DNA from: a virus
Length of the DNA stretch: 51,452 nucleotides
Direction: 5' to 3' (one strand)
Virus record (IMG/VR): IMGVR_UViG_3300016461_000015
Location: 1-51,452 of that record
Within the stretch, counting starts at the first letter, position 1, and each line of letters opens with the position of its first letter. Below, in pieces: positions 10,053 through 50,534 of the stretch. The notes beneath the pieces are model-generated. The model made no database searches and was not told where the DNA came from. It worked only from the letters and a program-made list of their open reading frames with translations. A program made the translations under genes and the position numbers.

Positions 10053-11420
10053 ATGACCTCGCACACACTCGCCAGGCAAAGCACCGTCCTCGACATCATC
10101 GCCGAATACGACCGCAAAGCCGCTGGTATCGACGAAGCGATCAAGGCATATGATGACGCCTGCACGGCGGTCGAAATGGCCGGCACAATCATGGGCACCT
10201 ACGTCAATCCGGTTCTGCTGGGCCGGGCCTACGTCCACGCCAACGACATGCGCAAGAACCTCCTGTCGTCAGGCTGGAAGGCGATCTACGGGCGCCTGAA
10301 CATCGACCGGATCGCCAGCGCCAAGGACAAGAAGCTGTTCGAGCGCACCTTGGCCGACCCGCCGGAACTGACCTTTGACAATGCCAAGGCGACGTTCGGG
10401 CCGTACCTTGAGAACCCGCGCGCACATATCCTTCGCGGTCTGGCCGAAACTTTCGCGGACCTCGATCCGGCCTACAAGTCGCACTCCAAGGTCAAGATCG
10501 GCGTGAAGGGCCTGCCCAAGCGGGTCATTATCAGCAGCTGGGGCGAATATTCCGGCACCTACGGCAAGGACAAGTTCCGCGACATCGTGAATGCGCTCGC
10601 TGCCTATCGTGGCCAGCCTCTCATGGAGTGGGAGGAGTTCAACGCCCTCGCCATCATGCACCGTGCCGGCGGCGATGGAACCCTCGACGGCCGGGAAGTC
10701 ACCGAGACCGATCGCTACGGCAAGGTGACGGTCATCAAGACGCTTGACCGAGGCATGACCGTCCGCCGCTTCGGCAACGGCAACGCACATGTGTTCTTCG
10801 CGCCGGATACGCTCATGGACATCAACCGGGCGCTAGCCGAGTTCTATGGCGATGTGCTGCCGGACGCTGAGGAAGAAGACGCCAAGCCTCGCGCCGGAAC
10901 GTCCGTCTCCAAAGACCTGCAATTCTACTGGTCCCCGGACAATGTGATCGAACGGGCGCTGGAGTTCGCCGGTCTATACAATCTCCGTGAGTGGCGGAAC
11001 AACCCGCCCGAGCCGTCTCGCATTCTGGAGCCGTCATGCGGCGCTGGCCGGATCATGGATGCGATCCGCGCCCGTGGACATCGCGTGTTCGGCATCGAGT
11101 ACCACGCTGGCCGCGCCGCCGAGGCTCGAGCCAAGGGCCACAACGTCCTAACGGCCAACTTCCTCGAACAGCCGGCCAAGCCCGAATTCGACATGGTGGT
11201 GATGAACCCGCCCTTCTACGGGCGCCACTACGTCAAACACGTCCGACATGCGCTGGAGTTCCTGAAACCCGGCGGGCAGCTCGTCTCGATCCTGCCCGCT
11301 ACGGCTCACTACGACCACGGCGAGCTTGAAGGCGAATGGCGTGACCTGCCCGTCGGCAGCTTCGCCGAGGCTGGGACCAACGTGCCGACCGGCCTGCTCA
11401 AAATCAGGAGGCCGGCATGA
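10053..11420 (+). CDS. DUF4942 protein with SAM methyltransferase domain
   Basis: 455 residues. The N-terminal ~290 match DUF4942, a domain usually fused to methyltransferases in phages. The C-terminal part has a SAM motif I (LEPSCGAGRIMD, near residue 325) and the amino-methylase motif NPPF near residue 385. An N6-adenine DNA methyltransferase is the best call. The start directly follows the previous stop, and the end overlaps the next gene by 4 bp. It likely works with the neighbouring methylases in anti-restriction. Confidence 0.85.
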   Translation: MTSHTLARQSTVLDIIAEYDRKAAGIDEAIKAYDDACTAVEMAGTIMGTYVNPVLLGRAYVHANDMRKNLLSSGWKAIYGRLNIDRIASAKDKKLFERTLADPPELTFDNAKATFGPYLENPRAHILRGLAETFADLDPAYKSHSKVKIGVKGLPKRVIISSWGEYSGTYGKDKFRDIVNALAAYRGQPLMEWEEFNALAIMHRAGGDGTLDGREVTETDRYGKVTVIKTLDRGMTVRRFGNGNAHVFFAPDTLMDINRALAEFYGDVLPDAEEEDAKPRAGTSVSKDLQFYWSPDNVIERALEFAGLYNLREWRNNPPEPSRILEPSCGAGRIMDAIRARGHRVFGIEYHAGRAAEARAKGHNVLTANFLEQPAKPEFDMVVMNPPFYGRHYVKHVRHALEFLKPGGQLVSILPATAHYDHGELEGEWRDLPVGSFAEAGTNVPTGLLKIRRPA

Positions 11421-11689
11421 CGCAAGTCCAATGGGCTGGCCCGCTCTTCTATCCGCCAGTCGGCATGATCGCCGTCATGGACAGCGGTAGCCGGATCGAA
11501 GTCTGGCACGACGAGTCCGAAAGCGCGGATTGCTTCACCGGCCTTCTGCTTATGGACGGGCGCACCCACGACCAGCGCGTCGTCTTCGACCTGAGCTGCA
11601 TGTGGGTTCGCCAATTCATCGACCATATAGAGGAGCCGACTGACGATGACCTTCGTCTCGGCGGGCTTCCGCGAGAGGAGGGCGCCTGA
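11417..11689 (+). CDS. Hypothetical protein (90 aa)
   Basis: Overlaps the preceding methyltransferase by 4 bp and abuts the next gene by 1 bp, so translation is coupled. The protein is acidic and beta-rich (MIAVMDSGSRIEVWHDESES), with a C-terminal acidic tail. No family is recognised. Confidence 0.6.
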   Translation: MTQVQWAGPLFYPPVGMIAVMDSGSRIEVWHDESESADCFTGLLLMDGRTHDQRVVFDLSCMWVRQFIDHIEEPTDDDLRLGGLPREEGA

Positions 11690-12363
11690 TGCACAAGCTC
11701 ACCCTCGATCCTTCGACGCAATTCGGTTGGGCCTTGATGCTGGACGATAGCCATTTGCCGGCAGACCAGCAGCGCACGCCAGGTCAGCGTCTTTCCTATG
11801 GCACATGGGATTTGACCAAGGATACCGACGGCACGCGCTACAAAGACCGCGCCAGCTACGGCCGGCACTTCATCCGATGCCTCAATGATCTGCTTCGCAA
11901 ACACGATATCGCTGACGACGAAATCGAGATCGCGCTTGAGGGGGAATCTTACGGTTCACAGCGGAGCGAAGCCGGGCGGCTTATGGCTGCGATGTGGCGA
12001 ATTGCCCTGGAATTGTGGTGCTCAGGCAAAGGCCGTCCCTATCCGATCATTTGCCCGCCCGATACGTGGCGATCGTCATTCATCCACACGACCAAGGCGC
12101 CCAAGGAAGTGGGGGCCGGGCTTGAAGATAACGATCGCTATGCTGCCCGGCGCAAGTGGCTGAAAGATCGGGTCTTGGCCGAATGTCATGCGCCTGGCCG
12201 CAACCTCAAGCCGAAAAACGATAACGAGGCTGACGCGCTCGGCATGATGTACTGGCTTGTCCACGACGGGCCAGAAGCTTTGGAGCAAAAGCGGGCCGAG
12301 AAGAAGGCCAAGGCATCGGCCAAGCGTGCTCAAAAGAAACTCGATCTGCAGGTGGCAGCGTGA
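11689..12363 (+). CDS. RuvC-like Holliday junction resolvase
   Basis: 224 residues. It opens with LTLDPSTQFGWAL, the first catalytic Asp of the RuvC/RNase H fold. A second acidic site follows in ALEGESYGSQ near residue 84, and the last pair lies in NDNEADALGMMYW near residue 175. This spacing and the short Lys-rich tail fit phage crossover-junction endonucleases. It would resolve branched DNA before packaging or during recombination. Confidence 0.8.
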   Translation: MHKLTLDPSTQFGWALMLDDSHLPADQQRTPGQRLSYGTWDLTKDTDGTRYKDRASYGRHFIRCLNDLLRKHDIADDEIEIALEGESYGSQRSEAGRLMAAMWRIALELWCSGKGRPYPIICPPDTWRSSFIHTTKAPKEVGAGLEDNDRYAARRKWLKDRVLAECHAPGRNLKPKNDNEADALGMMYWLVHDGPEALEQKRAEKKAKASAKRAQKKLDLQVAA

Positions 12364-13577
12364 ATGTGGCTGTTCGTCCCCATCACCTCGACATCCTCTC
12401 CATCTGCACAGGCGGAGCCGGAGTTGATCTCGGCGTCGAGCTGGCAATTCCAGGCGCTCGCTCAGTCTGCATGGTCGAGAGGGAAGCCTTCGCCGTCGCG
12501 CACCTGGTTTCAGCGATGGAACAAGGTCTCCTTCATCCGGCTCCTGTGTGGAGCGATGCCCGATCCTTCGACGGCAGACGCTGGCGTGGATGCGTGGACG
12601 GCCTCATTGGCGGCATCCCGTGCCAGCCTCATAGCCTTGCCGGAAAGCGCGAAGGCTCCGACGACGAACGCGACCTCTGGTCAACAGCCCGCCGCATCAT
12701 CGTCCAATCGGGCGTTTGGTTTGTCCTCATCGAAAATGTCTCGGGAATGCTCTCGGCGAAGCCCGGCCTCGATGCGGGCGCGCTACGGGTCAGGCGTGAC
12801 CTACAGCGATTGGGTTTCGACGTTGAGGGAGGATTGTTCACGGCGGCAGAGGTCGGCGCGAGCCACGAGCCCGAACGCCTCTTCATCCTCGGCGTGGATA
12901 ACGCCGCGGGCGAACGAGAACGACGAATCGCCAGAGAGTTGGCAGGTGCGGCGAATGCGCATGGCGCCAGCGGATCGACCCGGGGAGACAGGGACACTCA
13001 CATTGCAGGCGAAGGCGTTTCAGGCGTCGGCCTGGCCGACGCCTACTGCGAACGACTGGAAGGGCAGCGGCCCAACGCTGGAGCGCAAGGACGGCCAGAT
13101 GCGAGGCGACCGGCTGGACTATGCGACGGAACAGCTTTGGTCGACACCGCGGGCATCGGACGGGGAGAAGGGCGGGCCGAACCAAGCCTTTGGAGCGGGC
13201 GGGGTGCCGTTACCAGCGCAGACGGTGCAATGGCCGACGCCGACATCGTTGAGTTTCGGAGACAGCCATCAGCCGGGGAACTCGCGCTCATACAACGAGA
13301 CGATGCGGTTGGCCTCTTTCCTCCCGGGCCAAGCGACCTCTCCAGTTGGCGACGTACCCTTGAAAGAGCGCCGGAGCTTGAACCCGCTGTTCGTCGAGTG
13401 GCTGATGGGCTGGCCTCCCGGTTGGACGTTGGGCGTGTGGATCGACTTCGCATGCTCGGCAACGGAGTTGTCCCGCTTCAAGCAGCGTATGCGATCCGCA
13501 CTCTCGCAGCTCGCCTTGCCGGCAGAGGCTCCGCCGGCGCAGCTCGCCTTGTTCGGATGATGGAGGTGGCAGAGTGA
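12360..13577 (+). CDS. C5-cytosine DNA methyltransferase (Dcm family)
   Basis: 405 residues with a GTG start overlapping the previous stop. Motif I is CTGGAGVDLG (residue 16 on), catalytic Cys88 lies in GGIPCQPHS, ENV follows near residue 125, and motif X is LGNGVVP (366-372). The target-recognition region contains recurring VDNA, LADA, VDTA and MADA tetrads. Each lies exactly over a W-x-T-P motif of the overlapping +1 frame. It methylates cytosine C5, probably against restriction. No endonuclease partner is seen. Confidence 0.9.
   Translation: MNVAVRPHHLDILSICTGGAGVDLGVELAIPGARSVCMVEREAFAVAHLVSAMEQGLLHPAPVWSDARSFDGRRWRGCVDGLIGGIPCQPHSLAGKREGSDDERDLWSTARRIIVQSGVWFVLIENVSGMLSAKPGLDAGALRVRRDLQRLGFDVEGGLFTAAEVGASHEPERLFILGVDNAAGERERRIARELAGAANAHGASGSTRGDRDTHIAGEGVSGVGLADAYCERLEGQRPNAGAQGRPDARRPAGLCDGTALVDTAGIGRGEGRAEPSLWSGRGAVTSADGAMADADIVEFRRQPSAGELALIQRDDAVGLFPPGPSDLSSWRRTLERAPELEPAVRRVADGLASRLDVGRVDRLRMLGNGVVPLQAAYAIRTLAARLAGRGSAGAARLVRMMEVAE
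12364..13560 (+). CDS. Overlapping +1-frame protein with WPTP motifs
   Basis: A 398-codon frame with its own ATG lies entirely inside the Dcm-family gene, one base out of phase. It has four W-x-T-P motifs at residues 178, 224, 259 and 290 and a C-terminal signature LNPLFVEWLMGWPPGWT (339-355). From memory, the same motifs define phage proteins usually labelled as methyltransferases, found as independent proteins or as C-terminal parts. It could be a separate overprinted gene, or be joined to the Dcm N-terminus by a frameshift. Not a random open frame, in my judgement. Confidence 0.6.
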   Translation: MWLFVPITSTSSPSAQAEPELISASSWQFQALAQSAWSRGKPSPSRTWFQRWNKVSFIRLLCGAMPDPSTADAGVDAWTASLAASRASLIALPESAKAPTTNATSGQQPAASSSNRAFGLSSSKMSRECSRRSPASMRARYGSGVTYSDWVSTLREDCSRRQRSARATSPNASSSSAWITPRANENDESPESWQVRRMRMAPADRPGETGTLTLQAKAFQASAWPTPTANDWKGSGPTLERKDGQMRGDRLDYATEQLWSTPRASDGEKGGPNQAFGAGGVPLPAQTVQWPTPTSLSFGDSHQPGNSRSYNETMRLASFLPGQATSPVGDVPLKERRSLNPLFVEWLMGWPPGWTLGVWIDFACSATELSRFKQRMRSALSQLALPAEAPPAQLALFG

Positions 13578-45897: not shown

Positions 45898-46136
45898 ACC
45901 TACCCCGCTTCGGATCGGGGAGTTGAGAAGCCGCCAAGCGACGACCGCATACGCCTTTAGGCTTTCGCCCTGGACATACGCGTATGCCTCCCCGACCCGA
46001 ACGGAAATCGGGAGGGTGTGAAACGCTCCCCAGCCTGTGCCGGAGAGCGTCGCTTGGAGGGGTTCTCACGCCCCATCCCACCGCATTTCGGTGGGATGCC
46101 GGGAAACTAATCGAACAATCTTTGAAAGGAAAGACC
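45898..46136 (+). other. Five-hairpin non-coding leader before lysis genes
   Basis: Hairpins occur at 45903-45920 (CCCCG/CGGGG), 45947-45987 (GCATACGC/GCGTATGC, containing palindrome CATACGCGTATG), 45987-46015 (CCTCCC/GGGAGG), 46023-46050 (ACGCTC/GAGCGT) and 46074-46098 (perfect 10-bp stem CATCCCACCG/CGGTGGGATG, 5-nt loop). None has a U-run, so these are more likely an RNA leader or regulatory RNA than simple terminators. A good ribosome site for the holin ends the region. Confidence 0.6.
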
Positions 46137-46367
46137 GTGCCTCGTCTCGTCACGAACTGGCGGGCGGTCCTGCGTTATGCGTGGACCGTCCGCTTGGCGC
46201 TTTTGGCTGCCTTGCTCAATGGCGTCGTCGTCACCGTTTCCATCATCACCGGCGCACTCGCTGTTCCGCCCGTCTGGCTCGCGGCGCTTAATGGGCTGCT
46301 CACCGTGGCTCTGGCGATCGTGCGCATCATCGACCAATCCAACCTCAAGGATGACGCCAATGAGTAA
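46137..46367 (+). CDS. Putative holin (76 aa, two membrane spans)
   Basis: GTG 46137 with GAAAGGA 6 nt upstream is chosen over the open frame extending through the hairpin region. Two hydrophobic segments (RLALLAALLNGVVVTVSII and PVWLAALNGLLTVALAIV) are separated by a short turn, and the tail is charged. Position directly before the endolysin supports a holin or pinholin. Confidence 0.75.
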   Translation: MPRLVTNWRAVLRYAWTVRLALLAALLNGVVVTVSIITGALAVPPVWLAALNGLLTVALAIVRIIDQSNLKDDANE

Positions 46368-46863
46368 GCGCGCAAAGGCGGCGCTCGCATCGGGTCTTGG
46401 CCTGGTCGCGATGACTGCCACGTATTTGACCCAGCCATGGGAGGCGACGGTCAATCGCGCCTACTGGGATAGGCTAGGCAAGGTGTGGACCATCTGCACG
46501 GGCGAAACCAAGGATGTGAAGCCCGGCATGGTGCTGACGGATAAGCAATGCGGCGCAATGCTGTATCGGCGTCTTGAGGTTGACTTCCATCAGCCTCTCA
46601 CCCGCTGCATCAAGGGATTCGACGGTAAACCGTTGAGTTGGCAGGCCGCCACGCTCGATCTCTCCTACAACGTGGGTGTCGGCGCTGTTTGCAACTCGAC
46701 CGCAGCCAAACGCGCGCGCGCCGGTGACTATGTCGGCTCCTGCTACGCGATGACCTGGTTCAACAAGGCCGGCGGCGAGGTCATCGATGGTTTGGACCGG
46801 CGCCGAAAACTCGGCGATGCCAGCCGGATCGGTGAGCTCGAATTGTGTCTGACGGGCCTCTAA
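46360..46863 (+). CDS. SAR-type endolysin, GH24 lysozyme
   Basis: 167 residues. A weakly hydrophobic N-terminal segment (AALASGLGLVAMTATYL) looks like a signal-arrest-release anchor. It is followed by the GH24 core: Glu in QPWEATVNRAY, Asp in YWDRLG, Thr in WTICTGET. SWQAATLDLSYNVGVGAVCNS completes the fold. Membrane-held enzyme would be released when the membrane is depolarised by the holin, then cut peptidoglycan. Confidence 0.88.
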   Translation: MSKRAKAALASGLGLVAMTATYLTQPWEATVNRAYWDRLGKVWTICTGETKDVKPGMVLTDKQCGAMLYRRLEVDFHQPLTRCIKGFDGKPLSWQAATLDLSYNVGVGAVCNSTAAKRARAGDYVGSCYAMTWFNKAGGEVIDGLDRRRKLGDASRIGELELCLTGL

Positions 46864-47231
46864 TGTTCGCGCAGGTCAAACTTTATGCGGCGCTCGTGCT
46901 TGCGGTCTTGCTCGCCGCACTTGTTGCCACCGCACTTTGGTACCGGGGGCAGGCCATCAGCGCCTCGGCAGAGGCCAAGGACGCGCAGAAACAGCTCGCG
47001 ACGGCTGTTGATGCCAACAAGGCAGCTAACAGCACAATCGATGCGCTTCAGGAACAGGCGCGGCTCGACAGCCGGCTCGTCTCCTCGCTGGTCGAAGAAA
47101 TGCGCAACATCGGCGCCTCGGTCGAGGCTCAATCCCAAAAACTCTCCGAATTGGAAAAGTCGAATGAAGTGGTACGCGATTTTCTCAATCGTCCTGTGCC
47201 CAGTGACCTTGGCAAATTGTACGACCACTGA
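46863..47231 (+). CDS. Rz: Rz-like inner-membrane spanin
   Basis: 122 residues; ATG 46863 overlaps the endolysin stop (TAATG). One N-terminal membrane span (LYAALVLAVLLAALVATALWY) is followed by a periplasmic coiled coil (AEAKDAQKQLATAVDANKA). The Rz1-like gene starts inside it in another frame, the diagnostic arrangement of spanin pairs. Confidence 0.85.
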   Translation: MFAQVKLYAALVLAVLLAALVATALWYRGQAISASAEAKDAQKQLATAVDANKAANSTIDALQEQARLDSRLVSSLVEEMRNIGASVEAQSQKLSELEKSNEVVRDFLNRPVPSDLGKLYDH

Positions 47232-47433
47232 GACGGTGGTTTCGCCAAAGGTCGTGCAATTGCGGGTTCCCGAGGCTTTCACCGTACCATGCCCGAAGGC
47301 TGATCGTCGCAAATGGTCGACGGTGAAGGACATCGTTGGGACGGCAACCGCCAATGAGGCTTCGCTAAGGGTTTGTTCGGCACAGGTCGATAGTGTCCGC
47401 CGTTGGAATGCTGGGACGGGAGCCGCCAAATGA
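47164..47433 (+). CDS. Rz1: Rz1-like outer-membrane spanin lipoprotein
   Basis: 89 residues, beginning inside Rz in another frame. The signal peptide (KWYAIFSIVLCPVTLANC) ends with lipobox LANC, then the mature part TTTETVVSPKVVQLRVP. It anchors in the outer membrane and joins the Rz coiled coil to fuse the membranes in the last lysis step. Confidence 0.82.
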   Translation: MKWYAIFSIVLCPVTLANCTTTETVVSPKVVQLRVPEAFTVPCPKADRRKWSTVKDIVGTATANEASLRVCSAQVDSVRRWNAGTGAAK

Positions 47434-47777: not shown

Positions 47778-48128
47778 ATGGGTACTGCATTTCGTTTTCG
47801 CATCTGGTTCATGCTGTTGTGGCTGGCCGGCATAGTGGCCGCGCTTGTCGCACTCAGCCTTTCGGATGCGCACGCTCAGTCAATGGCCTGTCTCGAGTTC
47901 CAGAAACTCGCCAAGGGCCTTGCCGACAAATATCACGAGGTTCCCGCCGGTTCCGGCATCACAGGGCAGGGAAGTGCTGCACTGATCGTATTTGCATCCC
48001 CGGCCGGCGCGACATGGACAGTCGCCATTCTGGATCAGAAAGGGCAGGCCTGTGTCGTGGCCACCGGTCAGGATTGGCTCGACGTCATCCCGCCAAAGGA
48101 AGTCGTTCCGGGGACTGAAACGCCATGA
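47778..48128 (+). CDS. Exported protein of membrane cassette (116 aa)
   Basis: ATG 47778 has an AAAGGA run upstream. A signal peptide (WFMLLWLAGIVAALVALSLS) ends with DAHAQ. The mature part (CLEFQKLAKGLADKYHEVP) is a small periplasmic domain with two cysteines. It overlaps the ExbB/MotA-like gene by 4 bp, so it belongs to that cassette. Similar to small phage proteins that lie among lysis genes. Confidence 0.65.
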   Translation: MGTAFRFRIWFMLLWLAGIVAALVALSLSDAHAQSMACLEFQKLAKGLADKYHEVPAGSGITGQGSAALIVFASPAGATWTVAILDQKGQACVVATGQDWLDVIPPKEVVPGTETP

Positions 48129-48523
48129 TCAGGCTCTCGGTTTTGAATTTTGCGGCCCTGTGCTTTATCGCGTGGACGTGGTGGATGGGCTATCTCGGTT
48201 TCGTCTACAGCCACGATGTTTCCCGTCTCAGCTATCTGATCACTGCAATCTTTCTTGTCGCGATCATTGGCGTCTTTGCGGGTCGGACCAATCATCTCGA
48301 TCGCTATGAAGTGTGGCTCGTGACACTGGGTCTGATCGGCAACGTGGTGGGCTTCATCATTGCGCTGCAACACATCGATACCAATTCTCTTGGAACTGTT
48401 GATGGCGTTCAAAAGGTTGCCGCATCGCTCCTGGCAGGAATGGGCGTCGCGTTCTGTTCGACGCTAGTCGGTGCGGTTTGTGCCCTGTGGCTGAACGTCA
48501 ACGCGTGGATCGTTTCGAGATGA
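48125..48523 (+). CDS. MotA/TolQ/ExbB-like membrane protein
   Basis: 132 residues with four predicted spans. The last part (SLLAGMGVAFCSTLVGAVCALW) matches the conserved segment of MotA/TolQ/ExbB proton channels, in which a small-residue helix pair lines the pore. It is shorter than typical ExbB and lacks the big cytoplasmic loop. Followed by a single-span periplasmic protein with ATGA overlap, as ExbB is by ExbD. Confidence 0.7.
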   Translation: MIRLSVLNFAALCFIAWTWWMGYLGFVYSHDVSRLSYLITAIFLVAIIGVFAGRTNHLDRYEVWLVTLGLIGNVVGFIIALQHIDTNSLGTVDGVQKVAASLLAGMGVAFCSTLVGAVCALWLNVNAWIVSR

Positions 48524-49065
48524 TTCCGATCCTCACCCGCGACCTGCTCCTGAACATGCTTCTTGGGCTCACCGCGTTGGTCGTACTCGTGCTGGCGCAA
48601 ATCAACCCGGTCGCGAAGTCGAGCGAAGAGACGAAACCGCCCGGCAGCATCGCTGTCATGATCACATGGCTGGCAGGACCGATCGATGTTGACCTTTGGG
48701 TCTCAGGGCCGGGCGAGCCAATCGCCGTCGGCTACAGCAACAAGCAGGGAAAGCTCTGGAGCCTCCTGCGCGACGATATGGGAACCGTCGGTGACGTGTC
48801 CCCAATCAATATGGAAAACGCCTTCGCCAGAGCCACACCAGCCGGCGAGTATTTCGTCAACATCCATGGCTATTCGCTCCCAGGGGGAACAGTCCCGGTC
48901 TATGCCGAGGTTTCCCTAAACGGTCGATTGTTGGTCAAGACAACAATGGATCTGCAGCCGAAGCAGGAGAGGACCGTAATCCGGTTCCGGCTCGACGGCG
49001 AGGGGCGATTGATCGAAGGCAGCGAGAACAGGGTGTTCAAGCCCTTGCGCGAGGTCGGCAAATGA
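48520..49065 (+). CDS. ExbD-position protein with periplasmic beta domain
   Basis: 181 residues. One N-terminal span (LLLNMLLGLTALVVLVLAQI), then a beta-rich domain (GSIAVMITWLAGPIDVDLWV; RATPAGEYFVNIHGY) resembling DUF2135-type sandwich domains. Topology is like ExbD/TolR, but the usual ExbD domain is replaced and no conserved membrane Asp is obvious. Likely partner of the preceding channel-like protein. Confidence 0.65.
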   Translation: MIPILTRDLLLNMLLGLTALVVLVLAQINPVAKSSEETKPPGSIAVMITWLAGPIDVDLWVSGPGEPIAVGYSNKQGKLWSLLRDDMGTVGDVSPINMENAFARATPAGEYFVNIHGYSLPGGTVPVYAEVSLNGRLLVKTTMDLQPKQERTVIRFRLDGEGRLIEGSENRVFKPLREVGK

Positions 49066-49493
49066 TCATCGCAACGACGTGGCTTTGCCTGGCATTCATC
49101 TTGTGCGGCATGGGATGGTTCATCAATCGGCGCCTAGTTCTTTTCTCCTTGCCGGCGTCCTGTCTGATCGCCGCAGTGGCTCTGTGGATACCAACGGGGT
49201 CGCCTCGTTTCACCAAGCCTCCACAAGGCGATTATGTCGTCGTTGGGGCTAAGATAGTGGTCGACAAAGCGATATACGTATTGCTCGATACTGGCGACGT
49301 TCCAACCTACTACGTCCTTCCATACTCGACCGCAGCGGCCAACCAACTTCAAGACGCCCTCGACGCTCGAAATGGCGAAGGGGTCGCCGCTCATGTGAAG
49401 CGCGGCCGCAATGATGAAGGTGTGTCCTTTGACGGACCGCCTCCTGTTTCGGGGAACGTTGAAAAACGGCCCGAAACCCCAGTTTTCCAATAA
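49062..49493 (+). CDS. Two-span membrane protein (143 aa)
   Basis: Overlaps the previous gene by 4 bp. Two hydrophobic segments (TWLCLAFILCGMGWFI and LFSLPASCLIAAVALWI) precede a soluble periplasmic part (DYVVVGAKIVVDKAIYVLL). No known family. Fourth member of the membrane cassette. Confidence 0.6.
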   Translation: MIIATTWLCLAFILCGMGWFINRRLVLFSLPASCLIAAVALWIPTGSPRFTKPPQGDYVVVGAKIVVDKAIYVLLDTGDVPTYYVLPYSTAAANQLQDALDARNGEGVAAHVKRGRNDEGVSFDGPPPVSGNVEKRPETPVFQ

Positions 49494-49508: not shown

Positions 49509-50534
49509 ATGGCTGTACCAACCGATGAGGCTCAATTGCGAGCCGTGCTCAGTGCTGTGCAGGAATATGGTTCGAAAGCTGCCGCAGCAAAGGCTTTGGG
49601 GATGCCGGCATCTACTCTCAAAAGTCAGTTCATGGCAGCGGAACGCCGTAGCATCCACGTCGAAAAGGATGAGGCGGTGGAGTTTCCCGCTTTCATCCTC
49701 GGCGATGAAGAGGAGCCGATTGACGACATCCTTGATCGATTTCGCAAAGCCCACGAACGCAAGCAGAAATCTATCGAGGCGCGGACATGGTTTCCGATAA
49801 AGATCAAGGAAGATAAGCCGTACGGCATTCTTTGGTTCGGTGACCCCCACCTTGGCGTCCATTGCGATTGGAAGACGCTCGAGGCGCATGTCGCGATTGC
49901 GCGGCAACCGGGCATCTATGGCGGCAACATAGGCGATACGACCGACAATTGGCCGTGGACCGGGAGGTTGGCGCGGCTATGGGCCGAGGCGGACATTTCA
50001 TCCAAGACTGAGCGGCGCCTAGCGACGTGGTTCATGATGGAGGCCGGCATCAAGTGGCTGCTCTGGCTCGGCGGGAATCATGACGAATGGAACGGTGGGA
50101 CTGAGTTTTACAAACTGCTCGGCGCCTCGCAGATCCCTGTTGTCGACTGGCGCGCTCAGTTCACGCTATGCCACAAGAACGGTTCGGAAACGCGCATTGA
50201 TGCCGCACACGGCCGGAAGGGTTCGTCGATCTACAATCCGACCCATGGTACGCTGAGAGCGGCCAAATTTGGCGAGGATGCATCTCTGTTCGTCACCGGA
50301 CATATTCATTCATTCGGCCTGTTCGATATCGAATTCCCGGACAGGAAGTCACATACATGGCTAGCACAGATATCCGGTTACAAGATGGATGATCGGCATG
50401 CCTTGGTGAACGGCTTTGCCCAGTCCAATCGAGGTGCGGCAGTTCTCTCCGTCATCTTCCCAGATACAGGGAAGGTCCAATGTTTTGCGGATGTAGAGCA
50501 GGGTGCCGACTATCTCAAATGGTTGCGCCGATGA
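49509..50534 (+). CDS. Calcineurin-like metallophosphoesterase with HTH
   Basis: 341 residues. An N-terminal HTH-like segment (EYGSKAAAAKALGMPASTLK) is followed by a phosphoesterase core. Metal ligands are in GDPHLGVH, NIGDTTDNW, GNHDEW and TGHIHSFG. Such phage enzymes may be DNA exonucleases or phosphodiesterases. The HTH suggests a nucleic-acid substrate. Position after the lysis genes does not show its pathway. Confidence 0.82.
   Translation: MAVPTDEAQLRAVLSAVQEYGSKAAAAKALGMPASTLKSQFMAAERRSIHVEKDEAVEFPAFILGDEEEPIDDILDRFRKAHERKQKSIEARTWFPIKIKEDKPYGILWFGDPHLGVHCDWKTLEAHVAIARQPGIYGGNIGDTTDNWPWTGRLARLWAEADISSKTERRLATWFMMEAGIKWLLWLGGNHDEWNGGTEFYKLLGASQIPVVDWRAQFTLCHKNGSETRIDAAHGRKGSSIYNPTHGTLRAAKFGEDASLFVTGHIHSFGLFDIEFPDRKSHTWLAQISGYKMDDRHALVNGFAQSNRGAAVLSVIFPDTGKVQCFADVEQGADYLKWLRR

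Follow-up and report, generated by a model that had tools for sequence, protein, structure and literature searches.

A three-gene module of phages and alphaproteobacterial chromosomes with sequence homology to ion-driven 5:2 motors

The DNA analysed here is a 51.5-kb virus record (IMG/VR record IMGVR_UViG_3300016461_000015), the whole 51,452-nucleotide stretch of which is referred to below as the window. It carries genes for a CI-like repressor, a large terminase, a portal protein, a tape-measure protein and baseplate components, from which it probably derives from a temperate tailed phage with a contractile tail. Two genes with PHROG matches to DNA methyltransferases are located in its early region (10053-13577). 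The subject of this work is a set of four genes, here named A to D, situated beside the lysis genes (Table 1). All four have ATG starts and each junction between them is a 4-nt ATGA overlap. Hydropathy analysis gave one signal-like span for A, four spans for B, a single N-terminal span for C and two for D. Compared with L009, the closest relative of the window, the genes gave dN/dS values of 0.03 for A, 0.07 for B, 0.07 for C and 0.08 for D, and such low values, indicative of purifying selection, mean that all four are real, selected genes. An initial annotation, made from the letters alone, had described four overlapping genes at 47778-49493 with an exported A product, a four-span B and a two-span D; the coordinates, overlaps and dN/dS values confirm the former, and the Sec-like signal of A together with the hydropathy profiles bears out the latter.

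Table 1. Features of the lysis block, the A to D gene set and its downstream neighbour in the window
Feature	Position	Strand	Basis or description
Holin	45984-46367	+	PHROG/Pfam
Endolysin	46363-46863	+	PHROG/Pfam
Rz-like	46863-47231	+	PHROG/Pfam
Likely Rz1 lipoprotein frame (MKWYAIFSIVLCPVTLANC)	47164-47433	+	Overlaps the Rz-like gene out of frame; read by eye only
Gene A	47778-48128	+	Sec signal AHA-Q; phrog_25396 match; exported, optional partner upstream of B
Gene B	48125-48523	+	4-TM pore (outer-ring) subunit, MotA/TolQ/ExbB family by sequence; PF01618 above gathering score
B Asn73	48341-48343	+	TM3; polar position of the GLIG[TN] motif
B Thr113	48461-48463	+	TM4; polar residue, pore-lining type
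Gene C	48520-49065	+	Single-TM axle-type subunit, ExbD/MotB position; predicted TerD-like beta-sandwich, presumably periplasmic
C Asp8	48541-48543	+	Start of TM helix
Gene D	49062-49493	+	Two-TM hairpin and small C-terminal OB/SH3-like barrel (AlphaFold model)
Calcineurin-like phosphoesterase	49509-50534	+	N-terminal HTH; Pfam/PHROG; neighbour, not counted in the module

The product of B is, by sequence, a pore subunit of the MotA/TolQ/ExbB family. In the window it matches PF01618 at 24.5 bits against a Pfam gathering score of 22.9, and the same family is matched by 103 of the 119 aligned B relatives at E <= 0.01 (best E 1.2e-13). When a profile of the B family was searched against all PDB sequences, 23 chains were matched at E <= 0.02, every one of them a pore subunit of a 5:2 motor, with no other kind of protein scoring better than E 1. 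These chains comprised MotA (8gqy, 1.2e-9), PomA (8bri, 8e-9), ZorA (8qyh, 2e-6), TolQ (8vlw, 2e-6), ExbB (7ajq, 1e-3) and an uncharacterised MotA/TolQ/ExbB protein. Both searches thus uphold the pore signature that had been noticed for B. Two motifs are conserved in the alignment of 119 relatives, namely GLIG[TN]xxG in TM3 and AxxxTxxG in TM4. Position 73 is occupied by Thr in 93 sequences and by Asn in 23 (Thr/Asn in 116 of 119), and position 113 is Thr in 104 of 119 and aligns with the conserved TM4 Thr of MotA and PomA. The protein of the window has 132 aa and its TM3 motif starts at residue 69, an early position which indicates that the cytoplasmic loop is minimal. Across the family, with motif position taken as the measure of loop length, the median start is residue 84 for viral copies and residue 119 for chromosomal ones.

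The AlphaFold model of C (pLDDT 93.3) consists of a helix at residues 2-28 and a separate beta-sandwich, with strands at residues 44-158. Residue 8 is Asp in 124 of the 126 sequences of the family and, by a shift of one column, in one more. This residue lies in the same place as the ion-binding Asp of MotB (D22/D32; PMC9389320) and as D24 of ZorB, which is needed for Zorya defence (PMC11890865). The three highest VIA scores of the model were all with TerD (Z 11.3, 10.6 and 10.2; 129-132 residues; rmsd 3.3-3.5), with the next rows at 8.5 or below; Foldseek alone returned no match for the C model at E <= 0.001. From the model, the outer domain is confidently predicted to be a TerD-like beta-sandwich and not a peptidoglycan-binding domain, a likeness of fold only. 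Proteins of the TerD family, which is a tellurium-resistance family with a calcium-binding beta-sandwich, are soluble. C resembles them in the fold of its outer domain and in clustered invariant acidic residues, and differs in being membrane-anchored and in its sequence, as the TerD Pfam profile has no match in C of the window and matches one of the 126 relatives at E 0.081. Five residues (W50, D56, D58, D85 and E99) are invariant in all 126 sequences and fit the metal-binding site of TerD-like sandwiches, by which the domain may itself bind a metal.

Profile searches with C gave little else. No Pfam family, including ExbD/TolR (PF02472), MotB and OmpA, was matched by C of the window at E <= 1, and MotB_plug was matched by one of the 126 relatives at E 0.06 only. 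The C family profile gave only weak matches among PDB sequences, such as the C-terminal domain of a subtilisin-type protease (E 0.017). DUF2135 (PF09906), with which C shares a DxDLW motif, was not found in C of the window and was matched weakly by 13 of the 126 relatives (best E 0.0018). C had been described at the outset as a single-span protein in the ExbD position with a DUF2135-like domain; the position is retained on the evidence of the one TM helix and Asp8, whereas the DUF2135 assignment is not, the fold leading instead to TerD.

The model of D (pLDDT 84.8) shows a two-helix hairpin followed by a small C-terminal barrel. The structure-model alignments were made with rows from the phage collection left out, and the best VIA Z for D was 6.5 (eIF5A/OB-like); the fold is left unnamed because this is below the level of common arrangements. 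Foldseek alone with the D model found no match at E <= 0.001. The loop of D is basic and therefore likely cytoplasmic, and in the model the OB/SH3-like barrel would probably be periplasmic.

To establish how widely these genes occur together, viral contigs were scanned with C, yielding 64 loci, and two deeper scans and one genome scan extended this number to 296 loci, representing 130 distinct viral and 79 distinct genomic C proteins. B was located upstream and D downstream of C in all but a few of the first 64 viral loci. In the larger collection C is flanked by homologs of B and D in nearly all 296 loci, with the exceptions mostly at contig edges: no viral locus lacks B unless it is cut on the B side, and 203 of 216 have D, most of the exceptions being contig ends. 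Complete B-C-D triads number 271, with many of the loci being near-duplicates. Carriage of the genes by other phages is thereby borne out, with B, C and D found together and in order; the expectation that all four genes would co-occur holds for these three and not for A, which was present at 11 of the 130 distinct viral loci. Named isolates with the module are Rhizobium and Sinorhizobium phages only, and fall among the 16-3-like temperate phages, the N3_13-type phages, RHph_I1_18 and the virulent, rhizobial T4-like Pootjesviridae (P10VF, RL38J1, RL2RES and Y68). In the S. meliloti laboratory phage 16-3 the genes are p038, p040 and p042. The module also occurs on marine phage contigs. In several relatives the B/C or the C/D junction is interrupted by homing-endonuclease genes of Seg-like or HNH type (L002 5246-6004, L004 5195-5932, L003 6550-7092), which marks the module as a repeated target of insertion.

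Gene A occupies a more variable position. Its product bears a Sec-like signal (IWFMLLWLAGIVAALVALS...AHA-Q), leaving a protein of ~80 residues with two Cys after export, and matches phrog_25396 at E 8e-14. In most 16-3-like loci the slot upstream of B is filled instead by a trypsin-like exported protease, and a gene A homolog and this protease were never found together at any one of the 130 distinct viral loci. On some marine contigs the protease directly follows D, and no trypsin-like protease was attached to the module at any of the chromosomal loci examined. An exported ClpP/SppA-like protein lies upstream of B in L067 and L071, a second protease-like family in this slot. Starts resembling signal peptides were found for 53 of 117 upstream-slot genes compared to 102 of 1028 control ORFs, by a crude score and with 32 of the 53 belonging to one protease family. 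Relatives of gene A are also found in roseophages (phages of Rhodobacter and Ruegeria) with no annotated module among their neighbors, and a search of those Rhodobacter and Ruegeria phage genomes with C gave no match. A was considered as a core component and rejected, as it is infrequent, is often replaced by a protease and occurs without the module. It is an optional exported partner lying outside the conserved core, and its product may act with B, C and D.

The module is not confined to phages, being chromosomal in alphaproteobacteria (for example at L217 5337-7101 and L300-L307). A search of bacterial genomes found 296 relatives, of which 80 were fetched, and copies of the module are present in Rhodospirillales and marine alphaproteobacteria. 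A match to C, weak or partial in a few cases, was obtained in 41 of the 289 alphaproteobacterial genomes searched, with genomes as small as 0.8-1.4 Mb among the 41. In Tistrella the module is situated between era and recO, and other copies lie among ordinary metabolic genes. In one 0.8-Mb genome B-C-D adjoins suf-like genes. Several Azospirillum genomes (L218-L230) have two copies of the module ~24 kb apart, and in a plasmid collection two copies were found per Azospirillum megaplasmid. On a tree of C to which marine chromosomal copies were added, phage and cellular sequences are interleaved, with a minimum of three phage-cell changes required by the starred branches; the tree came from a quick search, with many weak branches and a genome sample biased towards the query. 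A machine of phages alone, and an origin in phages alone, were rejected in view of the alphaproteobacterial chromosomal copies.

With respect to gene neighborhood, lysis genes adjoin the module in the 16-3-like group and the window, with lysozyme genes upstream in TM3_3_14B and X2_25. This position is not a conserved one: in P10VF and Y68 the module is placed between topoisomerase/gyrase genes and late-sigma, gp46/47-like and clamp genes, which surround it with replication functions, and in N3_13/N3_19 it is near an exonuclease gene and ThyX. Relatives of the phosphoesterase gene that follows D in the window were found 1-3.7 kb downstream of C at 39 of the 130 distinct viral loci, mainly in the 16-3-like group.

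Compared with known systems, the module is homologous by sequence to the 5:2 motors, yet it falls short of the profiles or cut-offs that define ExbD, the peptidoglycan anchor of MotB and Zorya. MotA/MotB and PomA/PomB provide the strongest PDB sequence matches; like B, their outer subunit has four TM helices with conserved polar residues in TM3 and TM4, and like C, MotB and PomB are single-TM inner subunits with an Asp at the start of the helix. In contrast to these flagellar stators, the module has no counterpart of the large MotA cytoplasmic domain in B, and neither a plug nor an OmpA-like peptidoglycan-binding domain can be recognised in C; it has an extra subunit, D, is carried by phages and lies outside a flagellar operon. 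With ExbB/ExbD(TonB) and TolQ/TolR(TolA) it has in common a PF01618 pore, a small one-helix inner subunit bearing an Asp, and a third membrane protein. The predicted outer domain of C is however TerD-like and not of the ExbD/TolR fold, in line with the missing Pfam ExbD match, and D, with two TM helices and a small barrel, differs from TonB and TolA. Zorya shares homology with the module in the pore of its 5:2 motor and an Asp of the ZorB D24 type, which is essential there (PMC11890865), whereas B lacks the long cytoplasmic tail of ZorA, C lacks the peptidoglycan-binding domain of ZorB, and the module is carried by phages. The curated defence models nearest to B are those of ZorA (PADLOC, E 2e-6; NCBIfam ZorA2, 6e-6), with scores well short of the cut-offs (NF041792, 25 vs 700 bits; NF033915, 19.5 vs 100), and a PADLOC scan of A, C, D and the downstream phosphoesterase gave no match to ZorB or to ZorC/D/E. 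Membership of Zorya was rejected on these grounds.

Taken together, we consider it likely that the products of B, C and D assemble into a small inner-membrane motor of the 5:2 class that is driven by ions. In such a machine five copies of B would form a ring through which two copies of C pass as an axle. Asp8 of C would bind an ion, probably a proton, at the interface between B and C, facing the polar residues of TM3 and TM4 of B, and the passage of ions would rotate or displace the ring relative to the axle. C would carry the movement into the periplasm through its TerD-like, probably metal-binding beta-sandwich, which would take the place of a peptidoglycan anchor. D would serve as an accessory membrane subunit. 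A periplasmic partner would be provided by the product of gene A or, in most 16-3-like relatives, by the trypsin-like protease. In support of this reading, B is homologous to the pore subunits of such motors, C has its conserved Asp in the place known from MotB and ZorB as well as a recognisable class of fold, and the three genes are closely linked; the selection acting on the genes and their distribution also agree with it. Against it stand the short B with no large MotA-type cytoplasmic domain, and a C with no match to the ExbD, MotB or OmpA families of Pfam.

Another possibility is that B and C form a gated ion channel which discharges the proton motive force at a fixed moment and performs no mechanical work. 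Conserved pore residues in a minimal B with no torque-transmitting cytoplasmic domain would suit such a channel, but it is an unlikely one: the elaborate periplasmic domain of C, with its five invariant residues, and D are both strictly conserved, which argues for an output beyond leakage, and retention on chromosomes speaks against a killing channel. Slightly less probable again is a helper of lysis that, by generating force or leaking protons, disrupts the outer membrane or makes lysis faster. The position of the module next to the lysis block of the window, and the upstream lysozyme genes of TM3_3_14B and X2_25, are what this proposal has in its favor. However, the window already has a holin, an endolysin and an Rz-like spanin with a likely Rz1, the T4-like phages and N3_13/N3_19 keep the module among replication or nucleotide genes, and the chromosomal versions lie among housekeeping genes, so the cassette does not appear to be part of lysis as had been suggested. 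Counter-defence, in which phage B and C would mix or compete with the ZorA/ZorB or Ton/Tol motors of the host and so poison them, is similarly improbable. It draws on ZorA being the nearest curated defence model for B, but the scores are far below the cut-offs, C matches no ZorB model and differs in its periplasmic domain, and the conserved set is complete, with three subunits of which one is an axle, and is more suggestive of a functioning machine than of a decoy.

As to its role, the module might have a housekeeping or fitness function taken from the host, such as energised nutrient uptake or maintenance of the outer membrane, and be an auxiliary gene set in phages. The presence of the module on Rhodospirillales and marine alphaproteobacterial chromosomes, those of small genomes included, and the interleaving of phage and cellular C sequences on the tree agree with this. 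On the other hand, the phage copies group in large separate clades and have a shortened B, and trypsin-like proteases accompany them and no chromosomal copy, features which suggest a phage-specific use; a housekeeping function is a possibility well short of probable. Our own suggestion, a speculative one offered tentatively, is that the phage-borne motor modifies or guards the envelope during infection or lysogeny, most likely for superinfection exclusion. This preference rests on two points: the module occurs in virulent as well as temperate phages away from lysis blocks, and it is paired with exported proteins. An envelope function like that in the host has roughly the same likelihood as superinfection exclusion or guarding.

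To our knowledge, the known 5:2 motors (flagellar stators, Ton, Tol, gliding and Zorya) are all cellular. The initial remark that no phage system of this kind has been described agrees with the literature, as no phage-encoded motor of this family was found in open-access full texts, a body which most subscription journals lie outside and in which absence is not proof. In the reviews and evolutionary studies of 5:2 motors that were consulted, Zorya is the phage-related case and a phage-encoded motor is not mentioned. It is, in our judgement, an evenly balanced proposition that the module represents an undescribed family of 5:2 envelope motors with a TerD-like axle, which is chromosomal and has been acquired on several occasions by phages both temperate and virulent, where it is paired with exported proteases or periplasmic effectors acting on the envelope of the infected cell, and that it would be the first ion-gradient protein motor encoded by phages. 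Given that cultured isolates (16-3, P10VF and RL38J1) carry the module, its function is directly testable. Its presence in 41 of the 289 alphaproteobacterial genomes searched points to a host function as well. If the proposal is true, a conserved phage-borne relative of these motors would mean that phages power work on the host envelope by the proton gradient, and would extend an actively studied class of mechanism by a family whose axle domain is new.
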